DNA of 64,000 bases from Halobium salinum (GTDB taxonomy: Archaea; Halobacteriota; Halobacteria; Halobacteriales; Haloferacaceae). This document shows positions 29,246-42,901 of the stretch, one piece after another. Position 1 is the stretch's first letter, and each line of letters starts with the position of its first letter. Below the pieces are notes generated by a model. That model made no database searches. It was given only the letters and a program-made list of their open reading frames with translations, and had not been told where the DNA came from. The position numbers and the translations under genes were made by a program. The stretch spans positions 1 to 64,000 of the forward strand of contig NZ_JAODIW010000007.1 of assembly GCF_026586625.1 (NCBI RefSeq), in the 5' to 3' direction.

Positions 29246-30121
29246 TTAGTCGAGGTTCCGGATCTTTTCAGCGAACTCTGTTTTCGATAGCCCCGGCGTT
29301 TCCTTCAGCTCCGGATAGCCTGCGCGTTCGACAGCCTCCTCGACGAACTCGGTCCAGAGGTCTTCGTGCTGCTCCGCATAGACGATTTTCGCCCCACTCG
29401 GGTACATATCCAGCTCGTATGCGGTCAAGTCGATTTCGACCGCGTGTTTCCGCTCAAGCGTTCTCGCGCCGAAGCGGTACAAGTGCTTGAAGAGGACGTT
29501 CTTCCGCCGAACGGTCAACAACCGCTTCGATTCGTTGATGTACTCGTTCACCCACTTCCGCCAGTCGTACGATTCTGAATCGACTTCGACGGACGTTTCC
29601 GGCATCGAGAAATCCGGATTCAGGCGCCGGAGGTAGAACTGGACCAGTGCGACAGCGGTCCGGTGATTGGCGTTCGGAAGTGCGTGTTTCAGAATCAGGT
29701 TTGAGGCGAGTCGACCTGCAACGGTTGTTGCCGATCCCTCCCACGACGTCCGATTAAGCACATCCGGCAGCGCGTCGACATCGATATTCTTGTACGCCTC
29801 GACGGGAACTCCTTCCTCTTCTTCATTCTGAGCGATGAGGGCGCGGTAGATCTCGAGCAGACGAACGACGATGGTGCTGTTGTCCTCGCTCATCTTCGCG
29901 AGTGACTCATTCAGATTGAAAGCGATCTCGCGAACGGGGCCACCGCCAACGCGGGACGTGTAGACGACGTAGAACGCTTCATCAATATCGTAGGACTGGA
30001 CCTTTACGGCAACGTCGTCGTCGTAGCCGACGATCTGCGAGACGACTTCAGCAGGGTCCGGATGCACGAAGTCAAGAGAAAACTGCTTGTCACCGGGATG
30101 ATGGTAGTAGACGTGGCCCAT
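29246..30121 (-). CDS. Doc/Fic-like protein
   Basis: 291 residues. The motif HALPNANHRT (146-155) fits the Doc form of the Fic active site, with catalytic His146, Asn150, Asn152 and Arg154. An N-terminal domain of about 100 residues precedes it and a helical C-terminal domain follows. Doc enzymes phosphorylate targets such as elongation factor Tu, and Fic enzymes mostly add AMP. Whether this one is a toxin is unknown, as no antitoxin with an inhibitory helix is evident. It is divergent from the AbrB-like gene of the defence operon with 105 bp between them. Confidence 0.7.
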   Translation of the reverse strand: MGHVYYHHPGDKQFSLDFVHPDPAEVVSQIVGYDDDVAVKVQSYDIDEAFYVVYTSRVGGGPVREIAFNLNESLAKMSEDNSTIVVRLLEIYRALIAQNEEEEGVPVEAYKNIDVDALPDVLNRTSWEGSATTVAGRLASNLILKHALPNANHRTAVALVQFYLRRLNPDFSMPETSVEVDSESYDWRKWVNEYINESKRLLTVRRKNVLFKHLYRFGARTLERKHAVEIDLTAYELDMYPSGAKIVYAEQHEDLWTEFVEEAVERAGYPELKETPGLSKTEFAEKIRNLD

Positions 30122-30173
30122 CTGGTATATTGTACTCCTTCATCAGTACTTATTAACCCAGTCTGTTGAGCCG

Positions 30174-30202
30174 ACTTAGTCTAAGTAAAGGTTATAACAT
30201 TC
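30174..30202 (+). promoter_or_regulatory. Operator and promoter of the defence operon
   Basis: The palindrome ACTTAG-T-CTAAGT (30174-30186) is followed by a TATA-like GGTTATAAC (30189-30197), about 30 bp before the AbrB-like start at 30227. A repressor on the palindrome would cover the promoter. Confidence 0.5.
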
Positions 30203-30226: not shown

Positions 30227-30442
30227 ATGACTCAGAAAACAATCGGACAAAACACCGGCCAATCCGGTCGGGTGAACTTGTCCGGCCCCGAACTCGACAT
30301 GTTCGATGCTGACGTCGGAGACCCCATCAAGGTCGACATCGCTGAGTCCAAAGACATCGCTCACGCGATTATCGACAACAGCACACACGGTGAGTTCGTA
30401 ATCGTGTCTAAACCCACAACCGAGGAAGATTCCAATGAGTAG
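30227..30442 (+). CDS. AbrB-like small regulator at the head of the defence operon
   Basis: 71 residues from the ATG at 30227. The core RVNLSGPELDMFDADVGDPI with following strands resembles a SpoVT/AbrB swapped-hairpin DNA-binding domain. Its last 8 bp overlap the DUF499 gene, so it is translationally coupled to the operon and probably acts as its autoregulator. It could alternatively be an antitoxin-like partner of the divergent Doc-like gene. Confidence 0.6.
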   Translation: MTQKTIGQNTGQSGRVNLSGPELDMFDADVGDPIKVDIAESKDIAHAIIDNSTHGEFVIVSKPTTEEDSNE

Positions 30443-33400
30443 CAGCGAGTATCCTGACCTCTTCGAAGCTTGTACTCCACGAGACGACGTCCTCGATGGA
30501 ACGCTCCAGGAGGATCAGTTCGCCGCAAGTCTAGCGACAGTTGTCCACTCGGTCGATGACGCCGCGCCGGTGTATCGGGATGCAACGAAGTTCTTCGACA
30601 TGACGTATCCCACTGATGGGCTGCGAACACTGTTGACCAACCTATCCGGGCGATTCCTTGCAGGTGGTGGATATGACGATAGAGGTTATTCAAGCAGTAT
30701 CCTCTGTTTGGACACCCGCTTCGGTGGCGGGAAGACGCACGATCTTATCGCTTCCTACCACCTAGCGACGAGCCCAACCGATATTGAAGACCTCAACCGT
30801 CACCTCGTGGATAATGCGAGTGACGTAGGCGACGCATATCTCGATGCTGTTCAGGATGGTCTGTCGGTCGACACTGCAGTGTTCGTCGGCGGGCACGTCG
30901 ACGCCCGGAACGCTCGAAGTGACCGAACCGATCCGGACGCCCCGAACACCCGTACGATGTGGGGCGAAATCGCCTACCAGCTATACGGCCTCGAAGGGTA
31001 CGAGTACCTCAAGGAGTACGACCAGGAGCGCAACGCCCCCGGCGGGAACACACTCAAAGGTCTCTTCGACCTCGGCGATGATCCTGCGCTCATCCTCGTC
31101 GACGAGATCGCGGCCTATCTCGAGACTGCGTCTGCCGTCGAAGTCGGAACTGCCACGCTTGCCAGCCAGACACTCAGTTTTATCCTCTCTCTTCTCGAGA
31201 CTGCGTCTGAACTCGACAACGTCACAGTCGTCTACAGTATCGCAGACACCGCATTCGAAGAGGAAGCAGAGGAAGTCCGGACGCTCATCGACGAACTCAA
31301 TCAGATTGGTCGTCGGCAACACAAGACGGTCACTCCGACGTCCGAAAACGAGGTCGGGCAGGTTCTTCAGCACCGTCTCTTCGAGGATATCGACCACGAG
31401 CAGGCAGCAGCGGTCTCAGAGTCGTATTTCCAGCTGTACGCTGATAGCGACCGGCAGTTCCCCCAGGAGGCGACCGACGCGAGCTTCGTCGATCGGTTGG
31501 AGCGAGAGTATCCCTTCCATCCGACGATTATCGACACGCTCACAGAGAAGATTGACACGATCCCCAAGTTCCAGCGAACCCGTGGCGCACTGAAGCTTCT
31601 CGCTCGTGCCGTCTACTACCTCTGGAATCACCAACCCACTCACTACGACCGACACTGGATTCGCCTCTACGACCTCACGCCGGCAGACAATGCACCTGAT
31701 GGGAGTATCGATTCGACTCTCCGCGAGACGCTCTTCGAGTTCGTGGATCTCAGTGCGGCTGTCTCGGCCGACATCTACAGTGAGGATGACACCGCCCACG
31801 CGCAACTCGAAGACCGCAAGTGGACCGAGAAGGGCATTCCGCCACTGGCCAGCCACCTTACGACCACTGTCCTATGGCACAGCCTCGCCTACGGGGAGCA
31901 GGCTACCGGGCTCACGCGGGCAGAGATGAACGCCGCCCTCGGACACCCAGAGGTCCGCTTCGACAACTACGACTCGGCCTTGGAAGCCCTCGCAGGTGGG
32001 GACATGAACGTCGCGTGCTACTACCTCTACGACGAGGAGCGTGTCCGGTTCAAGTCCGACCCGAATCTTATCCGGATCATCGACCAGCGTGTGGACAACA
32101 CGCCCGACGCACAGGCACGCAACCGATTCGAATCGCGGTTGGAGAATTCCGAGATCGGGACGGGTGGCTTCAAAACAGTCGTCTTCCCCGAGTCGCCAGC
32201 GGATCTCCCGGACAAAGTGTCCAAGCCTCAGCTCGCAGTGATGCACATGGACACCGCCCCCGTCTCCGACGGCGGGAGTGAGGTTCCTGAGAAGATTCAG
32301 ACGCTGTACCAGAAGTCTGCCTCAAAGCACGGCGGTGAGACCCAGAGCCGAGTTTACAAGAACTACGTGCTCTTCCTCGCCCCTGACAAAGAACGCATCC
32401 AGAGTGCGATCGACGAGGCACGTCAACTCGAGGCAATCGAGGCTCTACTGGACGATTCACAGCAGACGGCTGACCTCTCAAACGAACAGATCGAGGAGCT
32501 TCGTGAACGCCGCGACCAGACCCACGGGCTTCTGGGCGAACTCGTCCGCGGCGTCTACCGACACCTGTACTACGTCGACCGTGACGGACTGACCCATCTG
32601 ACAATCAATGCCACCGAAGCGAACGGTGGGACGACGCTCGTCAACGCCGTCGAAGAGACACTCGAGGACCGTCTGATTCGTGCAGACGCCGGCCCGAAGG
32701 GTGCTGCGTTCTTCAAACAGAAGCTCTGGCAGCAGACGCAGGATAGCATGACCACCGAGCAGTTGGTCACGCAGTTCGCGAAGAAGCCGGGGCTCCCGTA
32801 CCTCCTCAACACGAAGCCACTACGGAAAACGGTGGCCAAGATGGTCGACGACGCTGGCTACACCTACTGGGACAGCACGTCCGGTGAACAGGGACTCGCC
32901 TACTGGGACGGCGACGAGGACGACCGTCCGGAGAACTGGCGAAAGGCGAACCCGCTCTCTGACTCTCCGGATGTCCAAACAAGTATCCGGGACTCGGACG
33001 TGAAGGTCGGCGACGAGTACGTCGTCTACACCGACATCAACGCCCTTCTCGACGTCCACCACGACGCTATCCGTCCACCGGAGACAGACAAAATTCTGTG
33101 TGCTAAGGACGGCTGTGACGTCGAGGTCGACCAGGAAGGAGACTTCTGCTCGGAACACGAGCCCGATATCGAACATGAGTGCGCTAACTGCGGGAAGACC
33201 GTCGCGAGTCAAGCTGAGCTGAACCCGCGTGGACTCTGCGCCGAGTGTGCCCAGCCGAATGACTGGGAGCGTTCGACGAGCTTGATGGCCGCCTCACGAG
33301 CATTCAACGAGGTACGAACCCACGCACTCGGGAAGGCGGCATCGGGTGGCGACCCCGGCATCGACCGCGTCACGATCGAGATCGGTGGTGAGGACCAGCT

Positions 33401-33746
33401 GTCGAAGGGGTCGTTCATCGCTCAACGCCAAGCGTTCAAGGATCGGGCCGAAAACGTCTCTGTACGGATGCGGTACGAGACAGAATCGTCCGGTGGTGCG
33501 ACGTACCAGGCGCAGTTCACTGGTGGCATCGACGAGTTCTCACGGGTGACGAATCAGCCGGACCCGTTCGGAGGCGCGTCGCGGGTCGAGCTCAAGTTCC
33601 GTGTGGATATGGACGACCCGGAGCCGATTACGGACGCCGAAGACGACGTGCTCGCAGAGCTCCAGGACGAGCTCGGCTCGACGAACATCGACGTGAAGGT
33701 TCAAGGCCGAGGACCGGTCGAACTCCCCGCAGAGCTTCAACCATGA
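30435..33746 (+). CDS. DUF499-family large AAA+ ATPase (defence)
   Basis: 1103 residues. Walker A RFGGGKTH (about 95-102) is the diagnostic GGGKTH form, and Walker B is LILVDEIAAYLE (about 217). A zinc-binding region near the C-terminus (about 888-945) has CAKDGCD, CSEHE, CANCGK and CAECAQ. DUF499 ATPases (COG1483) occur with DUF1156 methyltransferases and SNF2 helicases in archaeal and bacterial defence islands and are distantly like BREX BrxC ATPases. The gene overlaps its neighbours at both ends (8 and 4 bp), showing one operon. Confidence 0.88.
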   Translation: MSSSEYPDLFEACTPRDDVLDGTLQEDQFAASLATVVHSVDDAAPVYRDATKFFDMTYPTDGLRTLLTNLSGRFLAGGGYDDRGYSSSILCLDTRFGGGKTHDLIASYHLATSPTDIEDLNRHLVDNASDVGDAYLDAVQDGLSVDTAVFVGGHVDARNARSDRTDPDAPNTRTMWGEIAYQLYGLEGYEYLKEYDQERNAPGGNTLKGLFDLGDDPALILVDEIAAYLETASAVEVGTATLASQTLSFILSLLETASELDNVTVVYSIADTAFEEEAEEVRTLIDELNQIGRRQHKTVTPTSENEVGQVLQHRLFEDIDHEQAAAVSESYFQLYADSDRQFPQEATDASFVDRLEREYPFHPTIIDTLTEKIDTIPKFQRTRGALKLLARAVYYLWNHQPTHYDRHWIRLYDLTPADNAPDGSIDSTLRETLFEFVDLSAAVSADIYSEDDTAHAQLEDRKWTEKGIPPLASHLTTTVLWHSLAYGEQATGLTRAEMNAALGHPEVRFDNYDSALEALAGGDMNVACYYLYDEERVRFKSDPNLIRIIDQRVDNTPDAQARNRFESRLENSEIGTGGFKTVVFPESPADLPDKVSKPQLAVMHMDTAPVSDGGSEVPEKIQTLYQKSASKHGGETQSRVYKNYVLFLAPDKERIQSAIDEARQLEAIEALLDDSQQTADLSNEQIEELRERRDQTHGLLGELVRGVYRHLYYVDRDGLTHLTINATEANGGTTLVNAVEETLEDRLIRADAGPKGAAFFKQKLWQQTQDSMTTEQLVTQFAKKPGLPYLLNTKPLRKTVAKMVDDAGYTYWDSTSGEQGLAYWDGDEDDRPENWRKANPLSDSPDVQTSIRDSDVKVGDEYVVYTDINALLDVHHDAIRPPETDKILCAKDGCDVEVDQEGDFCSEHEPDIEHECANCGKTVASQAELNPRGLCAECAQPNDWERSTSLMAASRAFNEVRTHALGKAASGGDPGIDRVTIEIGGEDQLSKGSFIAQRQAFKDRAENVSVRMRYETESSGGATYQAQFTGGIDEFSRVTNQPDPFGGASRVELKFRVDMDDPEPITDAEDDVLAELQDELGSTNIDVKVQGRGPVELPAELQP

Positions 33747-34387
33747 CATCGCACCCAACACCCAACGTCGACTCGGCGACGCCACCTGCAGCCGAGAGTG
33801 ACACCCTCTCAGACGGCCGCTTCGGAAGCAGCGTGTACGGGGGCCGACCGACGTTCGCACTCGCCCGTCGTGACGACGTCGACGGCGCCTCACTGACGCT
33901 GTACGAGCTACTCCCCGAAGACCAAGCCGAAGCCCGTCGCGATCGTCTTCAGCGTGGAAACCCGAACCGTCGGCTGGTAACCGAACCGTTCGATACGGTG
34001 TTTGCAGAGTCAGCTGACCCCGACGTCGACCGATGGGAATGGGACGACTGGACGGCTGTGAAGGTCACTCGCCTATCTGGGAGTCGCCTTCGAGCCACAC
34101 TTCCACTGTTACGTGAGACGCTCCGTGGAGCCGACCTCGACGAGTCGGTTATCACGACCACCGGCGACGCCGAAGTCTTCCTCCCTGAGACCGTCGGCGT
34201 CCGACTTGCTCTAGGTTTCCTCGGTGTGAAGCCAATCCACCGCGTCGACCGGATGCGGGCGTTCTCTCGTGGCATCGCACGAATGAGTGACGAAGAGTGC
34301 TACTACTGGCACGCAAAGTGTCGATCTCCGTCCTCACCGAACGGCGAGAAAGCACTGCGAACGCTACTGACTGACCACATTAACTGA
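33743..34387 (+). CDS. Small conserved protein of the DUF499/DUF1156 system
   Basis: 214 residues, overlapping the ATPase gene by 4 bp (ATGA). After an unstructured N-terminus it has alpha/beta sequence and a conserved-looking end (GFLGVKPIHRVDRM; SDEECYYWHAKC). In bacterial versions of this locus a DUF3780-type protein lies between ATPase and methyltransferase. This gene holds that position, but I cannot prove homology. No catalytic motif is visible, so a specificity or scaffold subunit is possible. Confidence 0.7.
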   Translation: MTSHPTPNVDSATPPAAESDTLSDGRFGSSVYGGRPTFALARRDDVDGASLTLYELLPEDQAEARRDRLQRGNPNRRLVTEPFDTVFAESADPDVDRWEWDDWTAVKVTRLSGSRLRATLPLLRETLRGADLDESVITTTGDAEVFLPETVGVRLALGFLGVKPIHRVDRMRAFSRGIARMSDEECYYWHAKCRSPSSPNGEKALRTLLTDHIN

Positions 34388-34388
34388 T

Positions 34389-37262
34389 ATGACAAAAAAA
34401 TCCAAATCTGAGAAAACGATGAAATCACTCGCAATTGAGGGTAAACTTCCACTGAAGGCAGTTGGGATTGAGAACCTGAAGGAGGACAATCCCAAGCATA
34501 TGCCACCTAATCGATATTTATTCCCGTGGTATGCTAGACGGCCGACTCCTGCTGCACGTCTCGCTGTCTTGGCATCAGTTCTGCCAGAAGGTGTCAGCAG
34601 TGATGATATACTCAGTTTGATGCAAATCAAGCCAAACTTTGAGCCAGGCATTCCATTAGAAGATTATGTGGTAAACAAGAAAGCGACAGAAGGAAACCGA
34701 TCCGGTACGCTTGGTGACCACTACGGATATCCACGTCCTTTCGAATCCAGTCCGACTAAGAATCAACAAAGTGATCTTCACTCTCAACTCCGTGAATTTT
34801 GGGATGGCTCTCTCCCGACAGTACTTGATCCAACAGCTGGTTCAGGAGTAATCCCGCTTGAATCTCTAAGATACGGTCTGCCAACGAAGGCAAACGAACT
34901 CAATCCCGTTCCTTCTGTAATGCTGAAGGTAGTCCTCGATTATCCATTATCCGCTGGTCACCTTCGTCAAGAAGTAGAAAAATGGGGGTCGGAAATCGAC
35001 AAAACCGCTTCAAAGAACTTAGTAGAATATTTCCCAGGAAAGAACAGTCGGCAGACGCCCTCACACTACGTTTCGACCTATACTATTCGTTGTCCTAACT
35101 GTGCTTGTGATTTACCCCTAACGTCGAAGCTGTGGCTCCTCAAACGTTCTTCATCAAAGGGTATCGCTGCAAGACCGAAATACGTGAATGGAGAACTTAC
35201 GTTTGAAAGAGTAGAACTCCCTAACGACGTCAAAAAAGATGAATTCAACCCCCAAGATGGTCCGCGGTCTCGAGGTGGGAATACGGAATGCCCTAACTGT
35301 GGTGTAGTAACGGAAAGTAGTGAAATCAAAAAACGGGTAAAGAATGGCGACTACGAGTACGCAATCCTCGGTGTAAAGTACACGAAATCTGGAGGCGGTT
35401 CGGGATACCGCGTAGCAACTCAAGCGGATTACGACGGATATCAAAAAGCGGTTGATAGAGTCGAATCTGACTACAATTTGTTCTCGTTATTAACGCAGAG
35501 TATCCCTGAAAACGGACAGAAAACGTCTGAACCTGCTGGTTACGGTTTCTCCGAGTGGAGGGATGCGTTCACTCCACGTCAATTGGTTGCCCATTATGAG
35601 TATTGGCAGGCGTTTGAGAAAGCAAAGGATAGGATTCAACAGGAGTACTCTCCGAAAAAAGCTGAAGCAATTATCACAATATTAGCCCTTGCCGGCGGGA
35701 AAATGGTCGATCGGAACTCTCGGTTTTCACCATACAATATCCATCGTGGATACCCCATGCACCTTACTGGTGCAAAAAACCTCAGTCCGCAATGGCAGTT
35801 CACGGATAATAATCCTTCTTCGGGTGATCAACAGTATACCGACATTTTGGATAGAATACTTGGGTCTTACGAGAAAATTGTCGGATATCTAGAAAACTCT
35901 GAATCGGAGCCTGCTGAAGTACTGAATGGAGACGCAGCAAGTCTGGACCTGAAATCTAATTCAGTTGAATCCGTGATTGTTGACCCACCATACTATTCAA
36001 GTATCATGTATGCGGAGCTGTCTGATATATTCTATGTGTGGCTAAGACAATATCTTGATGATGTATTCTCTGATCTATTTGTTGAAGAAGTGACAAACAA
36101 AGACCAGGAAGCTGTCGCTAATCCATCTAAGTTTAGTGAACTCGCAGGTAGCACCTCGAAAAAGGATCTTGCCCGATCTGATTATGAGGAGAAAATGAGT
36201 GATATCTTCTCTGAGATATATCGAGTGGTGAAGCCAGGTGGAGTGATGACCGTTATGTTCACGCACAAAGAGACAGACGCATGGGATACGCTCACACAGT
36301 CTCTAATCAACTCTGGATTCACTATAACGGCTACTCACCCAATTACTAGCGAACGCCCCAACCGTACAGACACTCAGGGAAGCGGTTCAGCCGATAGCAC
36401 TCTATTACTTACTGGACGCAAGGCTGTTACAGAAGACGATGATGACTCTTCGATTCCGACGCTGTGGAGTGATGTCAAACAAGATACGAGGGATGCTGCA
36501 AAAGAGGCTGCACGGAATCTAATCGATTCCGAGTTCAACTTAACAAAGACTGATATCATTATCAGTGCTTTCGGACCCACATTGAGAGTCTTCGCTGAGG
36601 CACACCCTGTGGTTGATGACCAGGATGAACCGGTTCCTCCACGCCGTGCATTGGAGGAAGCACGAGAAGCGGTCACAAGAGTGCTTGCTGAAGAATATTT
36701 GGAGGCAGAGGGAATAGATGACTTGGATAGTGTGACTGAATGGTATATTCTATGTTGGCTAGTTTACGAAAGACAAACGTTCTCCTACGATGAAGGACGC
36801 CAGCTTGGTCTGGGTGTTGGTGTTGATATTGATGACATTAAACGCAATACGAAAATATGGCAAAAAAGTAGCGGAGACATCAATCTCCGAGGACACGCTG
36901 ATCGTGTCCAAAATATTAACGAGAAGCCAGAAAACCGTTCGAGTCGAACACCGGTCAATCCAGACGACCTCTCGTTCAGTCTCGCTATAGACAAAGTTCA
37001 CGCGGCGATGCACGTCTACGATGTGCAGGGCGAGAGTGCTTGCTGTGATTGGCTCCGTGAACGGAATTTCGACTCCGACTCGACGTTCAAGGCGACACTG
37101 AAGGCAATCCTTCAGGTACTCCCTCACGACTACGAAGACTGGGAAATCGCCCGCGACCTAGCTGTTGGGCGAACAAAGAAAGTGTTGGATCTCGACTTCA
37201 GCCCAAACGTCTTCGCGGATAACGGCGATGAGAAAAAGCAGAGTAACTTGAGTAATTTCTGA
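34389..37262 (+). CDS. DUF1156-family DNA methyltransferase (likely adenine-N6)
   Basis: 957 residues. N-terminal DUF1156 signature FPWYARRPTPAAR (about 45-57); SAM-binding motif I LDPTAGSG (146-153); two zinc ribbons (CPNCACD; CPNCG); catalytic motif IV VDPPYYSS (about 530). The family (COG1743) methylates DNA in restriction-like systems, marking self. It starts 1 bp after the preceding stop. Its first about 2.5 kb is clearly poorer in GC than both neighbours, while the last about 300 bp returns to the local composition, a sign of allele replacement by recombination. Confidence 0.88.
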   Translation: MTKKSKSEKTMKSLAIEGKLPLKAVGIENLKEDNPKHMPPNRYLFPWYARRPTPAARLAVLASVLPEGVSSDDILSLMQIKPNFEPGIPLEDYVVNKKATEGNRSGTLGDHYGYPRPFESSPTKNQQSDLHSQLREFWDGSLPTVLDPTAGSGVIPLESLRYGLPTKANELNPVPSVMLKVVLDYPLSAGHLRQEVEKWGSEIDKTASKNLVEYFPGKNSRQTPSHYVSTYTIRCPNCACDLPLTSKLWLLKRSSSKGIAARPKYVNGELTFERVELPNDVKKDEFNPQDGPRSRGGNTECPNCGVVTESSEIKKRVKNGDYEYAILGVKYTKSGGGSGYRVATQADYDGYQKAVDRVESDYNLFSLLTQSIPENGQKTSEPAGYGFSEWRDAFTPRQLVAHYEYWQAFEKAKDRIQQEYSPKKAEAIITILALAGGKMVDRNSRFSPYNIHRGYPMHLTGAKNLSPQWQFTDNNPSSGDQQYTDILDRILGSYEKIVGYLENSESEPAEVLNGDAASLDLKSNSVESVIVDPPYYSSIMYAELSDIFYVWLRQYLDDVFSDLFVEEVTNKDQEAVANPSKFSELAGSTSKKDLARSDYEEKMSDIFSEIYRVVKPGGVMTVMFTHKETDAWDTLTQSLINSGFTITATHPITSERPNRTDTQGSGSADSTLLLTGRKAVTEDDDDSSIPTLWSDVKQDTRDAAKEAARNLIDSEFNLTKTDIIISAFGPTLRVFAEAHPVVDDQDEPVPPRRALEEAREAVTRVLAEEYLEAEGIDDLDSVTEWYILCWLVYERQTFSYDEGRQLGLGVGVDIDDIKRNTKIWQKSSGDINLRGHADRVQNINEKPENRSSRTPVNPDDLSFSLAIDKVHAAMHVYDVQGESACCDWLRERNFDSDSTFKATLKAILQVLPHDYEDWEIARDLAVGRTKKVLDLDFSPNVFADNGDEKKQSNLSNF

Positions 37263-37266
37263 GCGG

Positions 37267-38217
37267 ATGCGACCGTTCGGCGATCTCAGTGCTGCTCGTC
37301 TCGCCGCCCGAGAGTATGATTACTTCGAGTCCGAAGTCGACACGGTCCACCTAAAAACCGCACTTCCTCAGGATGGCTGGCACGCTGTGATTGTCGAGCT
37401 TTGTCTCGAGCGATTCAGATATTGCTATTCCCTGTATCAGTCCTCGCGGTCGATTTTCCAAACTGACCTCCAGAGGCGTAACTCGTCGGACGGATACACC
37501 TTCGGGCCACTCCCTGTACGGATCAGCTGGGGAGTCGGGGAGATGGCTTCCTTGATTAACAGCTCTGAGTATCGGTTGAACCAGTTCGAACAGGAACTCA
37601 ACCTCTGCCGACAACAAGCTTCGTTTGGGACCGCCGACCCGTACGAGCAACTCGCACGACGGTGGCTTCGTCACTCTCGGGACTTGCGTCGCCGAACCGA
37701 ATACTCACTGCAGGCGGCGATGTGGGTACAATGGACTGTTGAAAGTCTGTGGCAGGCTGGTCAGATTGCTGGACACCTATTGGACGAAGACTCACATCAT
37801 CTCTCATCATACGGCCCAGAGGCGTTCAGTTATCTAGCTCACCCACCGCTGTTCGTTGCAGTAATGGCAGCAGCATCGATGGTCGAAGAGGTTGGCGCGT
37901 TCACTGTCAAGGAGTTAGATACGGGTATCGACCCTGATATGGACGAGACTCGGCTGGAGGAGGTTCTCGGCTGGCTCTCAGACTGTGACCTTATTCCCGA
38001 CGGGACTGACGCCGACGTGTTGGATAATGACCTCAGGTCTGCCCGCAACGAGTTGGCTCACTCGATGATGGCTCGGAGTACAACGGTGACGCTCCAGACA
38101 TTCGAAGACTATGTTGCTGTTGTCTGGGAAGCTATTTCGCTCACAAACCACCTTGCTGAGCAACTACTCGAAAACGTATTCGTCGATTTGAATACGCTAC
38201 CTCTGACCCCTCGTTGA
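37267..38217 (+). CDS. Helical protein with HEPN-type motif in the defence operon
   Basis: 316 residues, starting 4 bp after the methyltransferase stop. It is almost wholly alpha-helical. Near the C-terminus RNELAH (about 259-264) matches the R-polar-x3-H (Rx4H) active-site motif of HEPN ribonucleases, and lies in the second half of a helical bundle as expected. I do not recognise the N-terminal part. If the motif is catalytic the protein could cleave RNA when infection is sensed. If not, it may be a helical scaffold. Confidence 0.6.
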   Translation: MRPFGDLSAARLAAREYDYFESEVDTVHLKTALPQDGWHAVIVELCLERFRYCYSLYQSSRSIFQTDLQRRNSSDGYTFGPLPVRISWGVGEMASLINSSEYRLNQFEQELNLCRQQASFGTADPYEQLARRWLRHSRDLRRRTEYSLQAAMWVQWTVESLWQAGQIAGHLLDEDSHHLSSYGPEAFSYLAHPPLFVAVMAAASMVEEVGAFTVKELDTGIDPDMDETRLEEVLGWLSDCDLIPDGTDADVLDNDLRSARNELAHSMMARSTTVTLQTFEDYVAVVWEAISLTNHLAEQLLENVFVDLNTLPLTPR

Positions 38218-38329
38218 CAGGAGTCGATATTTTGGCTCCTGTTGCCAAGTGGAAGCTCCGAACTGTACTCCACTGGCAGGCACACGTTTATAAATAGAGT
38301 CCCGCATTACTCGAACATAAGTCATCTCG

Positions 38330-41300
38330 ATGTCGCTTCCCTCATACACCTGGAAGTCTATCTACGAAAGCAAGCCACAGGCAGACGGTGCGTACCTCGT
38401 CGACGAGTTCTACGTCCCAGCGCTCACACGGTCTATCCGATACGACCGAATTGCGGGCTACTTCTCTAGCAGCGCGCTCGCGGTTGCCTCCAGAGGGATT
38501 GACGCACTCCTCGAGAACGACGGCGAAATGCGATTGGTTGTGGGAACGGAACTCTACACGACTGACCGTCCCGTTTTCGAGGCACTCACCGACGAACTCA
38601 CTGAATCTCTGGACGAACTGGACGACGAACAACTGAACGCCCAGCTCCAACTTCTCGCTCGGCTCCTCCGTGAGGATCGGCTTCACATCAAAGTCGCTGT
38701 CCCTCGTCAGGGTTCGTGGCGCATCTTCCACCCGAAGATGGGTGTCTTCCACGACGAAGACGGGAACGCGCTCTCTTTCGAAGGGAGCGTCAACGAGACC
38801 GTCGGTGGGTGGAAGAACAACTACGAGCGGTTCAAGGTCCATCGTTCGTGGGTCGACCAACAGTCGACGTACGTCGACGGCGACGTCGACACGTTCGAGC
38901 GCCTCTGGAAAGACGAACACCCCTACGTCGAGGTCTACAACCTCCCAGAGGCCATCAAGGAAGAACTCATCGACTGGAAAGACCCGGACTCGCAGACGAA
39001 GCTGGAGGAGGCAATCCAGATCGCCCGAGGCGAAGCACCTCCGACCGACCGCGACAAAGCCAACATCATCGCCGACGGACCACTCTCTCCCGGCGGTCTC
39101 GCGCTCGCAGAGAAAGGGAGTACGATCACGCCGTGGCCGCACCAGCGGGTCGTCTCCGACACGCTCGTCAACACCTATCCGAACAGCTTCTTGCTGTGCG
39201 ACGAAGTCGGCCTCGGAAAGACAATCGAGGCCGGCTTGACACTCTCACGTCTTGGACTCACCGACGAACTCGAAACCGGCCTCCTGCTGGTTCCAGCAAG
39301 TCTTACGGTCCAGTGGCAAGAGGAGATGTGGGAGAAGTTCAATCTGAATACGTATCGATACGAACGTGGGAGTGACTACGAATACGCCTTCATCGACGCC
39401 TTCGGCCGCGAACACACTCCTCCTACAGCTTCAGAGCTCGATGTCGATAGTGACGAACACGAACAGGCATGGGTCGAGAGCCCTATCTGGCGGTTCCTCC
39501 ACGAGCAACTAGCGAACACCGTCGCCAGCGCTCCCTCGATCATCATCATGTCCTGGCACACGGCACGGCTGAAGGACCGATGGGATCAGGTGGCACCAGA
39601 GGACGGTGGCCACGTCCGGACGCGGGAGGACGTCCCAGCGAGCTGTCGTGGCCGACAACCAGTTAACCGAGAGGGGGTGTGGGATGCCGTCATCGTCGAC
39701 GAGGCACACAACGGCCGCGAGGGAAGCAATTTCTACTCGATGCTCGAACGGCTTCGTGGTCACACACAGACCTACTACCTGCTCACGGCGACGCCGATGC
39801 AGCTGCACGCTGGCGAACTGTACGACTTGATGGCTCTGCTTGACCTCCCTAGCGGATGGGGCAATCAGGAAAATTTCGTGGAGTTCTTCGAGACACGACG
39901 TGCACTCACGAAGGCACTCGACGAGGTTTTCGGAGGGGGCGAATCGTCTGGAGACACCGACTCGTGGTCCGCACAAGCAACCCTCACCGAGGGGAGATAC
40001 CAGGACCGTATCTCTGGGTCTCGAAGTCTCTCAGATCGGGTTTTCGACTCTGTTGGTGCAGAACTCGACGTGAGAGATGAACAGCATGCACGCTCCATCG
40101 CGAAGCAGCGTGTCCTGCGTGCCTGTGACCTCGCTAGCGATTACGGCGAACACTACGACGGGTACGTCGACCTGTTCGAATCCTCGATGGAAGAGTACGA
40201 CGTCGATCCGTTCGACGCCAAGGAGGACGAGAAGCTGAAGTATCTCCTCTATCCCGAATGGAAGGCCGACGAAGAGTGGTTGACCTACTCACGAAACGAA
40301 CGACTTGCCGCGCTTGACGAGCTATCAGAGCCCGGCTGGCAAGTTGTTCAGGACGTTCTCTCTGAATCGACGCCCGTCGATGCGCTCATCCATCGAAACA
40401 CTCGTGACACCCTTCGAAAGTACGAACGGGTCGGCCTCCTTGACGCGACGGTTCCCGACCGTGATCCAGAACAGCACAAGATTGAGCTCACTGAGGAGAC
40501 CCGACGTGTGTACGACCGCATCGACGACTACACGAGGAAGTTCTACAAACTCGCCCAGCAGTCAGACGAGGCCGAATCCCGTGCTATCGGGTTCGTGATG
40601 ACCACGTATCGGCAACGTCTCACCAGCAGCGTGTACGCGATTTCACAGAGTCTCCAAAATCGGCTCCGAAAGCTTCGGGGACAGCGTACCGTGCTGAAAG
40701 GTAAGCAACGGGCAAAGGACGGTTCTGATGCGAGTACCCAGCAAGTCGTCATGGAGACACTTGCTGAGTATGATCTCGATGATTCTGAAGCGCTCGATGA
40801 GTTAGAAGGTAATCTCGAAGATGCGGACCTCGCGGAGATCATTCCTAACGTGACTGATGAAGGGCTTCACTTGCTGGAACAGGAGATTGACGAGTTAGAG
40901 TCGTTCGTGGATGAACTCGCAGCGATTGACCAAGACCCGAAGATCGGGCAGTTAATCGAGGATCTCAACGAGTTAGACCGCGAGGGGCACAATCGAGCGA
41001 TTGTGTTCACCCAGTACGCAGACACGATGGACTTCATCCGCCAGAGTCTCGTCTCTATACACGGTGAAACGGTCGCAACCTATTCCGGCCGCGGTGGCGA
41101 GGTGTACGACGGCGAGTCTGGAGAGTGGATACAGGTCGGTAAGGAGCGTGTGAAGCGTGAATTCTCATCTGACGAAGGTCACGTCGACATTCTGGTCTGT
41201 ACCGACTCTGCGAGTGAAGGGCTCAACCTGCAGGAGTGCGGCGCACTGATCAACTACGACCTCCCGTGGAATCCGATGCGCGTTGAGCAGAGGATCGGCA

Positions 41301-42271
41301 GAATCGACCGTATCGGACAGCGGTTCGATGAAGTCGCCATCCTCAACTACAGCTACGAGGATACCGTCGAGACAGACATTTACGACCGACTTGACGACCG
41401 AATCGGCTTGTTCGAGAACGTTGTCGGCGAGATGCAGCCCATCCTCTCTGGAGTGAGCCGCCAGATTCGAGATGCGGCCCTCAAAACCGACCGTGAGGAG
41501 AGCAGACGGGTCGTCGAAGAGGCTGACCGAGAATTCTCCAAACAAATCGAAGAACAAGAACAAGGTGACAGGGTCGATGTCGGTGAATCGCTAGACTCCA
41601 CCGACTCGTTGGTCGCACAGGACGTTATTGATGAGGCAAAGCTCGATGCGTGGCAGTCCTACAAGCATCCTGATATCGTCGACGTTGGAGATTCTGAGTA
41701 CGAGTATCCGGCCCCATTCGAGGTTGAGAGCCTGCAGGCGTTCTTCGTTGGCAATGAGACGCTGGTCGACTTAGGTGTCGAATTCACGCAAATCGGCGAC
41801 CTGGAGCTTGATGTAGACCACCTCGACTCTGTCGACGAGTTCGCCTTTGAAGCGAGCACGTATCGACTCACTACTGACGGAGCATCGATTGAGCTTCCGC
41901 AGTCCGATGGAGAGCAGACGCTTGCTCAAGCGATTGCACCAGCCGACGACATGGTCGCAGTGACGTTCTCCGCAGAATGTACAGACGAATTTCCATCTGT
42001 GCACCATCTAGCGCCTGGGAACCCCCTGTTGAGCCAGCTCGCCACCGCTATTCGTGAGGAAAACGAAGACCCCCAGCGCTTGGTTCGTCACGCAGAGTCG
42101 CGAGATAACCTTCCTACCAGGCCAATTATCTGTGGATGGGGACGTGATGGCGTACTTAGTCGACTTCTTACCGATGGAGCGATCGCCGAGGATATCGACA
42201 TCAATGTGCTTCCTACCTGGTTAGATGGCTTCGAACGAAACCGCGACCAATCATCCACAAGTTCGCTCTGA
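38330..42271 (+). CDS. PLD-domain SNF2/SWI2-family helicase (defence)
   Basis: 1313 residues. N-terminal phospholipase-D-like domain: HPKMGVF (near 134) followed by GSVNET (near 153), one HxK-type half site as in drmC-like and HKD-type nucleases. SF2 core: Walker A DEVGLGKT (near 290), VIVDEAHNG (near 455), LLTATPM, and the C-terminal lobe with TDSASEGLNLQ and RIGRIDRIGQR (near 990). Such proteins translocate on double-stranded DNA and, in these loci, probably act on unmethylated foreign DNA. A 112-bp gap separates it from the HEPN-like gene, so it may also have its own promoter. Confidence 0.92.
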   Translation: MSLPSYTWKSIYESKPQADGAYLVDEFYVPALTRSIRYDRIAGYFSSSALAVASRGIDALLENDGEMRLVVGTELYTTDRPVFEALTDELTESLDELDDEQLNAQLQLLARLLREDRLHIKVAVPRQGSWRIFHPKMGVFHDEDGNALSFEGSVNETVGGWKNNYERFKVHRSWVDQQSTYVDGDVDTFERLWKDEHPYVEVYNLPEAIKEELIDWKDPDSQTKLEEAIQIARGEAPPTDRDKANIIADGPLSPGGLALAEKGSTITPWPHQRVVSDTLVNTYPNSFLLCDEVGLGKTIEAGLTLSRLGLTDELETGLLLVPASLTVQWQEEMWEKFNLNTYRYERGSDYEYAFIDAFGREHTPPTASELDVDSDEHEQAWVESPIWRFLHEQLANTVASAPSIIIMSWHTARLKDRWDQVAPEDGGHVRTREDVPASCRGRQPVNREGVWDAVIVDEAHNGREGSNFYSMLERLRGHTQTYYLLTATPMQLHAGELYDLMALLDLPSGWGNQENFVEFFETRRALTKALDEVFGGGESSGDTDSWSAQATLTEGRYQDRISGSRSLSDRVFDSVGAELDVRDEQHARSIAKQRVLRACDLASDYGEHYDGYVDLFESSMEEYDVDPFDAKEDEKLKYLLYPEWKADEEWLTYSRNERLAALDELSEPGWQVVQDVLSESTPVDALIHRNTRDTLRKYERVGLLDATVPDRDPEQHKIELTEETRRVYDRIDDYTRKFYKLAQQSDEAESRAIGFVMTTYRQRLTSSVYAISQSLQNRLRKLRGQRTVLKGKQRAKDGSDASTQQVVMETLAEYDLDDSEALDELEGNLEDADLAEIIPNVTDEGLHLLEQEIDELESFVDELAAIDQDPKIGQLIEDLNELDREGHNRAIVFTQYADTMDFIRQSLVSIHGETVATYSGRGGEVYDGESGEWIQVGKERVKREFSSDEGHVDILVCTDSASEGLNLQECGALINYDLPWNPMRVEQRIGRIDRIGQRFDEVAILNYSYEDTVETDIYDRLDDRIGLFENVVGEMQPILSGVSRQIRDAALKTDREESRRVVEEADREFSKQIEEQEQGDRVDVGESLDSTDSLVAQDVIDEAKLDAWQSYKHPDIVDVGDSEYEYPAPFEVESLQAFFVGNETLVDLGVEFTQIGDLELDVDHLDSVDEFAFEASTYRLTTDGASIELPQSDGEQTLAQAIAPADDMVAVTFSAECTDEFPSVHHLAPGNPLLSQLATAIREENEDPQRLVRHAESRDNLPTRPIICGWGRDGVLSRLLTDGAIAEDIDINVLPTWLDGFERNRDQSSTSSL

Positions 42272-42310
42272 GTAAGCGAAATCTCCGACCTGGAGAGAGC
42301 AGGTGTTTCT

Positions 42311-42901
42311 TTGTATTCCCGGTTTCTCCATTATCACGTGTCCAAACCAGATATCGAAGTCCTCGACGACGCCGATGGCTATCCATATTCGTCTCATATC
42401 AGTGTAGACGGCTCTGAACTGCGACACGGCGATCTCCTGCTTGTCTTTGAGTCTTCAGAAAGTTCGATCGTGAATTTTTTCGAGCGCGTATACGGGTTTA
42501 CCTGGCCGGGAATTATCACTCACGTCATCGATGGACCGGTCCCTGCTGAGTTCCGTAGCTTCGAGTCACTCGCTGAAAAACTTCAAAACGGGAAAATCGC
42601 ACTTGCCAAAGAGCGAGAACAGACTAGCTACTTTTCTGACGATGATACAATCCGAACACTCTCACTCTATCGTTACTTCCACAGCAATGGTTGGCAACCG
42701 ATTCTCATCGACGAGTACCGAGATCCGCTTGAGCAGAGTTCTCTGACACAGTCGATTACACTCTGTGAAGACGCTAGCGAGGTTGTAGAGGAGTTATTCG
42801 AGGGCCAGTCGTTCTCGTCTGACTCTGAGCCAGACCAGATCCGTGACTTCCTCTTGTCTGCTGGATATGATGACGCTTCTATCCCTTCGATTGAACGCTG
42901 A
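42311..42901 (+). CDS. Uncharacterised protein after the PLD-SNF2 helicase
   Basis: 196 residues from a TTG at 42311. A GTG at 42338 would give MSKPDIEVLDD and is a good alternative. Acidic, mixed alpha/beta, with no recognisable motif. It follows the helicase by 39 bp on the same strand, so it may be the last gene of the defence operon. Confidence 0.55.
   Translation: MYSRFLHYHVSKPDIEVLDDADGYPYSSHISVDGSELRHGDLLLVFESSESSIVNFFERVYGFTWPGIITHVIDGPVPAEFRSFESLAEKLQNGKIALAKEREQTSYFSDDDTIRTLSLYRYFHSNGWQPILIDEYRDPLEQSSLTQSITLCEDASEVVEELFEGQSFSSDSEPDQIRDFLLSAGYDDASIPSIER

Follow-up and report, generated by a model that had tools for sequence, protein, structure and literature searches.

The stretch analyzed here (the window) comprises 64,000 nucleotides of the haloarchaeon Halobium salinum (contig NZ_JAODIW010000007.1, positions 1 to 64,000 of the forward strand; host genome of 4.46 Mb), and the system in question is a predicted antiviral operon at positions 30227–42901. 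An original prediction, made from the letters of the window, had described seven genes there with tight spacing of the first five, and an open reading frame (ORF) check confirmed all seven, with their order and coordinates. The first gene, of 71 amino acids (aa), overlaps the ATPase gene by 8 nt, and the latter overlaps the DUF7680 gene by 4 nt; 1 nt separates DUF7680 from the methyltransferase gene, 4 nt separate the methyltransferase from the HEPN-like gene, and 112 nt separate the HEPN-like gene from the helicase—with a further 39 nt between the helicase and the last ORF (66 nt from GTG 42338). The core genes, the recognition domain nested in one of them and the variable junction are the following:

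30435–33746, + strand: DUF499 (BrxC/ORC-Cdc6-like) AAA+ ATPase, 1103 aa (PF04465, E = 3e-31; PADLOC HmaC, E = 8e-93)
33743–34387, + strand: DUF7680 protein, 214 aa (PF24728, E = 1e-38)
34389–37262, + strand: DUF1156 DNA methyltransferase of the N6-adenine type, 957 aa (DUF1156, E = 2e-5; HmaB, E = 6e-62)
34986–35948, + strand: nested target recognition domain, aa ~200–520, a putative exchanged specificity module with low identity to relatives
37263–38329, + strand: cargo slot between methyltransferase and helicase, a variable junction in one clade
37267–38217, + strand: 316-aa HEPN-like protein with motif R260-N-E-L-A-H265, cargo in this copy
38330–42271, + strand: PLD(HKD)–SNF2 helicase/translocase, 1313 aa (SNF2 PF00176, E = 6e-15; Helicase_C PF00271, E = 3e-17)

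A conserved four-gene core

The family matches listed above bear out the DUF499 and DUF1156 methyltransferase identities of the original prediction, and its PLD–SNF2 identity was recovered through the N-terminus of the helicase, which matches the NCBIfam PLD anti-phage protein (1.7e-102), PLD_Helicase (1.5e-70) and PbeA (6e-66) profiles. The first, fifth and last genes of the operon gave no match in the family scans. The small protein predicted to follow the ATPase is indeed present; left unnamed at the time, it is the DUF7680 protein and a fixed part of the core.

The order ATPase–DUF7680–methyltransferase–helicase is invariant in ~60 loci, for which stretches of up to 20 kb were compared, and because the same order recurs in so many loci the arrangement is not a chance one. 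Junctions among the first three core genes lie within a few bases, apart from cases of alternative starts or broken genes. DUF7680 is present in 64 of 391 Halobacteria genomes and directly follows the DUF499 gene in the haloarchaeal loci examined, a succession also found on plasmids of Rhodococcus, Pseudanabaena, Leptolyngbya and Nostoc. Moreover, strong DUF499 matches occur almost all in DUF7680-bearing genomes and, where read, at DUF7680 loci (locus reading covered the strong matches; the other DUF499 matches are weak, or sit on pieces that are short or broken). As judged by this distribution, DUF7680 is an invariant fourth core gene. Its AF2 model has a predicted local distance difference test (pLDDT) score of 78 and features four main strands plus C-terminal helices, with no significant fold match among PDB or viral models. 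In addition, P0003 and P0005 had no relatives in viral contigs.

Residues expected at active sites are retained as well. Walker A (GGGKTH) and Walker B (DE) of the ATPase are invariant across 59 loci, as are motif I (D147/G151/G153), DPPY (532–535) and the zinc-finger cysteines 235, 238, 301 and 304 of the methyltransferase, in which the family scan identified a DNA methylase motif and in which the four cysteines fall between motif I and motif IV. In the helicase, H134-x-K136, G152-S153-x-N155-E156-T157, Walker A GLGKT, DEAH (457–460) and RIGRIDR show no or almost no variation across 58 loci. With one HxK...GSxN motif per chain, the PLD domain probably acts as a dimer. The operon is conserved and probably functional, and its PLD–SNF2 protein is the likely nuclease effector.

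Further copies were noted along the way. A second DUF499–DUF7680–methyltransferase–PLD/SNF2 locus, of a distinct helicase lineage, lies on another contig of the same genome (L004). Plasmid pHSAL2 of Halobacterium salinarum 91-R6 carries a decayed copy (L132), with transposase genes upstream, a shortened ATPase and a broken methyltransferase, in which an AAA-domain cargo gene and the helicase are still open. On cyanobacterial plasmids, four DUF7680 loci (L114–L116 and L118) have further genes separating DUF7680 from the methyltransferase, namely toxin–antitoxin pairs or genes for PIN, macro-domain, ThiF or peptidase proteins.

Exchange of the recognition domain and of cargo

Within this core, the methyltransferase departs from its neighbors. 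Compared with the nearest relative, from Haloprofundus marisrubri (L066), the ATPase is 91%, DUF7680 82% and the helicase 93% identical, against 61% for the methyltransferase; identity per 40-aa block falls to 30–47% over most of residues 200–520, and almost no DNA alignment is left across ~1.2 kb of the recognition domain. The domain generally shows 25–60% identity per 40-aa block to relatives with ATPase and helicase 72–93% identical, and the DNA homology breakpoints fall within the methyltransferase gene. Identity of the recognition domain bears no relation to that of the helicase in the clade carrying the cargo slot (rho −0.07; 18 members in the helicase tree, 20 loci for the gap counts below) or in its sister clade (rho 0.04), and the ATPase and DUF7680 track helicase identity (0.49/0.61 and 0.98/0.98 in these two PLD-type clades). 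When slot-clade pairs have helicases at least 90% identical, 8 of 9 have recognition domains below 60%; conversely, where recognition domains are at least 80% identical (four pairs), helicase identity is below 85% every time. The helicases of Natronorubrum thiooxidans and N. sulfidifaciens (L054/L057), for instance, are 98% identical and their recognition domains 40%, with an identical cargo type. The pair L066/L062 presents the reverse situation—a helicase identity of 81%, a recognition-domain identity of 98% and different cargo. An exchange of recognition domain and cargo as one cassette was rejected, as these two pairs point to separate events.

What speaks against independent exchange is that the locus pairs are non-independent and the correlations carry no P value, that the limits of the domain (aa 200–520) were chosen after viewing the identity profile, and that recognition domain and helicase co-vary in the second helicase lineage (rho 0.76). 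On the identity profiles and breakpoints together, the recognition domain is exchanged independently of the ATPase, DUF7680 and the helicase, an observation that is new here. Since helicase and ATPase stay constant as the recognition domain changes, specificity would most simply come from the methyltransferase, the subunit that probably determines it in marking as well as in restriction. Two studies on Type-1 BREX report the PglX/BrxX methyltransferase as the specificity factor there (PMC11341690, PMC11842806).

A second variable region lies between methyltransferase and helicase. The gap separating the two genes spans 75–6078 bp (median 1664) in the 20 slot-clade loci, whereas the sister clade has a median of 17 bp and the second lineage one of −1 bp. 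The slot holds cargo in 18 of the 20 loci, the other two being empty. HEPN genes fill it in five loci and Mokosh-like SF1 helicases in six, two of these with extra large genes (some Mokosh-like assignments go by length and position, part of the members having been scanned). Other contents are Nmad3 plus an unknown gene, TauD-like plus an unknown gene, an MCM-OB/HSDR_N nuclease, PHP–SMC (Ppl), DUF3800, a membrane protein and an unknown triplet. Cargo differs even between close pairs (window/L066, L071/L067, L054/L063 and L058/L062; helicases 93–96% identical), and on the helicase tree the HEPN label must change at least twice. In L066/L062, a clean occupied/empty pair, homology spans the whole methyltransferase, breaks, and restarts ~75 bp before the helicase, with ~1.7 kb of cargo in one locus and ~16 bp at the empty site of the other. 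By these comparisons, the junction is an exchangeable cargo slot in one clade, which is likewise new here. The cargo of L066 (13307–14952) encodes a 292-aa unknown protein and an Nmad3 (nucleotide modification associated) protein. Within the window, nothing convincing was found by way of mobile-element repeats at the slot edges. A few bacterial relatives have insertions at the same junction, namely an ATPase gene in Desulfosarcina and VapC in Thiodictyon.

The HEPN gene of this copy, which the original prediction took for a defining component, is one of many alternative cargo genes. The predicted motif is present—RNELAH fits the HEPN Rx4H pattern, and R260, N261 and H265 are invariant in six homologues—and the protein is quite probably an RNase. 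Counting against the assignment, which rests on this motif and on family matches, is that those matches are weak and to single family members (HEPN_MAE_28990, E = 0.005; HEPN_Apea, E = 0.018); a single-sequence model, all-helical and of low confidence (pLDDT 48), was left unused. We rejected HEPN as a core component, its family being found in 7 of 391 haloarchaeal genomes against 64 for DUF7680 and other genes filling the same slot; since these unrelated genes replace it, HEPN is cargo. A distant HEPN homologue (25–27% identity) occurs in a different operon (L110, 9260–16793), near a 1421-aa SF1 helicase with a weak Cas4-like match, and this operon is possibly a separate defence system.

Module borders and genomic setting

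DNA comparison with relatives places the start of shared homology at 30169–30176 and its end at ~42,278. The remaining features at or near these borders and the slot are:

30181–30196, + strand: promoter-like element CTAAGTAAAGGTTATA, 31 nt ahead of the 71-aa gene, at the conserved module start
30227–30442, + strand: conserved small protein of 71 aa, which precedes the ATPase in most PLD-helicase loci from the same lineage
38287–38296, + strand: TATA-like element TTTATAAATA, ~40 nt 5' of the helicase start, read from the sequence
42338–42901, + strand: 187-aa protein that lies beyond the conserved module as a floating companion gene; its homologues begin at GTG 42338

CTAAGTAAAGGTTATA has a single exact match in the window, where 0.09 would be expected allowing up to three mismatches, and in 27 loci CTAAGTAA precedes the start of the ATPase ORF by 125–351 nt (mostly 251–266). 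The 71-aa gene is absent from loci of the second helicase lineage. Its proposed AbrB/SpoVT identity was dropped, as no Pfam or PDB match emerged even with a 12-sequence alignment; the protein is a possible autoregulator. Most slot-clade members carry a TATA-like element ~40 nt 5' of the helicase, with T[TA]AAGT found 38–40 nt upstream in 9 of 18 (0.002 expected per 20-bp window), making TTTATAAATA a putative separate helicase promoter. Because this element precedes the helicase, the slot seems to lie between two transcription units. The last ORF measures 196 aa at its longer start. Homologues of the 187-aa form (~60% identity) lie 3' of the helicase at certain loci and 5' of the ATPase, in divergent orientation, at others; several profile scans returned no family match for this protein. 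Its place in the predicted operon was given up, since module homology ends at the helicase stop and the homologues vary in position.

To the left, a 291-aa gene (29246–30121) with a weak Doc match is 83–93% identical on other haloarchaeal plasmids until ~30,168; past this point, BREX-5 follows in Halomarina, and elsewhere a SNF2/DUF1156 locus or a transferase/primase operon. Because the homology around the shared gene stops where these different operons begin, the module probably occupies a plasmid defence hotspot. The flanking genes look plasmid-borne (Orc1/Cdc6-like, TrbC-like), and many named relatives are on plasmids.

Classification, proposed mechanism and rival explanations

The operon was first regarded as poorly characterized, but the literature shows that its kind already has a name. 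Archaeal gene sets of DUF499, a methyltransferase and a SNF2 helicase fused to a PD-(D/E)XK or PLD nuclease were noted in 2020 (PMC7641849); Hma, a three-gene relative (helicase–methylase–ATPase), was named in 2021 (PMC8565338); and a 2026 paper unites such systems as DUF499-centred BREX-Related (BR) systems, common in archaea (408 taxa), and proposes a restriction–modification-like model (PMC12839542). In the same paper, Type-2 BR combines a SNF2 helicase that has an HKD/PLD nuclease at its N-terminus with a DUF3780 gene, stand-alone in 98% of Type-2 taxa; Type-3 BR has PglZ and iSTAND; and HEPN and other nucleases are already listed as auxiliary effectors. The present operon contains the hallmarks of a BR system, i.e., the DUF499 ATPase, a DUF1156 N6-methyltransferase with a nested four-cysteine zinc-finger recognition domain and a SNF2 helicase, as well as the Type-2 signature of an N-terminal HKD/PLD nuclease on the helicase (HxK and GSxN; PbeA and PLD_Helicase profiles). 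This content agrees with the restriction–modification- and BREX-like logic first proposed. The gene order thus does belong to a named class, DUF499-centred BR with Type-2 nearest, and departs from it in that DUF7680 replaces DUF3780.

Further likenesses to Type-2 BR are the lack of PglZ, the gene order and accessory nucleases in or near the operon; the differences comprise, besides DUF7680, the leading 71-aa gene, the clade-specific cargo slot, the promoter-like element of the helicase and scores far under the bacterial cut-offs. DUF3780 is absent from this genome and was found in 1 of 247 genomes sampled across the phylum. Bacterial loci, annotated as anti-phage, are collinear (DUF499–DUF3780–DUF1156–accessory genes–PLD helicase), and DUF7680 occupies the position of DUF3780, with which it has only position, size and a similar C-terminal pattern in common. 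On these grounds DUF7680 might be a divergent DUF3780, an attractive idea that profile comparison did not bear out: hhalign gave E = 0.066, and with a larger profile the score was 17.4, where the null from shuffled columns reached 24.8. We therefore speak of a Type-2-like variant and not of a strict member. DUF7680 was named nowhere in the literature searched, and the main text of PMC12839542 contains neither DUF7680 nor Pbe.

Other systems resemble the operon in part. Hma has homologous ATPase (E = 8e-93), methyltransferase (E = 6e-62) and SNF2 helicase (E = 1e-59), but consists of three genes without DUF7680, and the related Type-1 BR helicases have a C-terminal PD-(D/E)XK instead of an N-terminal PLD; no C-terminal PD-(D/E)XK family match was found on the helicase at E < 0.1, a divergent fold not having been searched for. 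With BREX (Type-3, Type-5) it shares a BrxC-, BrxXI- and BrxHII-like triad and, probably, the methyltransferase as specificity factor (a role shown for Type-1 BREX). However, as predicted, the operon is not BREX: PglZ gave no match genome-wide with positive controls—which also sets it apart from Type-3 BR—and the operon has no BrxA/BrxB family match. DISARM had rightly been set aside too, the only MZB/DUF1998 (DrmB) gene of the genome lying on contig C11 and the operon on C12. The haloarchaeal DndCDEA–PbeABCD system (PMC6459918) likewise joins a PLD-helicase, PbeA, with small partner proteins in modification-dependent viral exclusion, but relies on phosphorothioation and an SMC-like PbeC where this locus has a methyltransferase and a DUF499 ATPase; no SMC-type family match was found in the operon. 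Type I restriction–modification systems also exchange recognition domains within a constant core; here, however, the domain is nested in the methyltransferase, and an ORC-like ATPase and DUF7680 are added.

Taken together, we consider it fairly probable that the operon is a haloarchaeal Type-2-like, DUF499-centred BR antiviral system. What weighs against this reading is the missing DUF3780 gene, the weak Pfam match of the PLD-like domain (E = 0.003), and scores short of the NCBIfam anti-phage equivalog cut-offs (223/1200, 121/1000 and 344/1100 bits for DUF499, DUF1156 and PLD, respectively). In such a system, the methyltransferase would bind a specific DNA motif through its nested recognition domain and, on self DNA, methylate an adenine at that motif. 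When the DNA is foreign and unmethylated, the methyltransferase would assemble with the DUF499 ATPase and DUF7680 into a sensing complex, and this complex would recruit or license the SNF2 translocase; the PLD domain at the N-terminus of the translocase may then nick, cut or block the DNA. The slot would carry a second effector—here the HEPN protein, a probable RNase, acting most simply as a back-up, killing the cell or arresting its growth when restriction fails. In this scheme the activity against viruses, the methylation, the role of the methyltransferase in specificity, the nuclease and RNase functions and any coupling of cargo to core are inferred. Its widest form is a three-part platform with a constant core, an exchangeable recognition domain redirecting both marking and restriction, and an effector port switched on by the core, which we put forward tentatively, at somewhat less than an even chance.

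The port in particular has to be set against the idea that HEPN and the other cargo are unrelated passengers—independent defence or toxin units at a junction that merely tolerates insertion—for which the chances are nearly balanced. The genes filling the slot are of unrelated types, some run opposite to the operon (L063, L071, L067, L083), some belong to stand-alone defence families (Ppl, Mokosh-like helicases), two of the 20 loci have none, and cargo would be dispensable for helicase expression because the helicase has its own TATA-like element. Yet cargo is limited to one clade and one junction, occupied in 18 of 20 loci; HEPN and Mokosh-like genes lie in operon orientation, and the HEPN start, a few bp past the methyltransferase stop, suggests co-translation.

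The action of the translocase is a separate matter. The related PbeA defends without detectable cleavage of viral DNA (PMC6459918), hence the effector may block rather than cut, and it is possible, although we lean to the other side, that the system halts viral DNA replication as PbeABCD does, with the PLD–SNF2 protein as a translocating roadblock. The invariance of the HxK and GSxN residues in 58 loci argues instead that catalysis has been kept; a search of the genome gave no DndE (its controls were silent too), and the methyltransferase stands in for phosphorothioation. Finally, restriction–modification systems can stabilize plasmids, and both the many relatives on plasmids and the plasmid-like flanks would suit an operon serving primarily as a plasmid-stability or addiction module. 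We regard this as quite improbable: the left border is common to BREX-5 and other operons at the same plasmid position, and the rapid exchange of recognition domains fits selection by changing invaders, not addiction.

For BR systems at large, the specificity-setting subunit is, as far as we found, unproven in the literature, and the Natronorubrum pair amounts to a natural swap, with 98% identical helicases and the same cargo next to different recognition domains. The cargo slot, in turn, supplies a set of candidate effectors, some of them without a known family, that already come paired with a known core, and the precise empty site would allow controlled cargo exchange. If the platform reading is true, one core could deploy many effectors against many DNA motifs.

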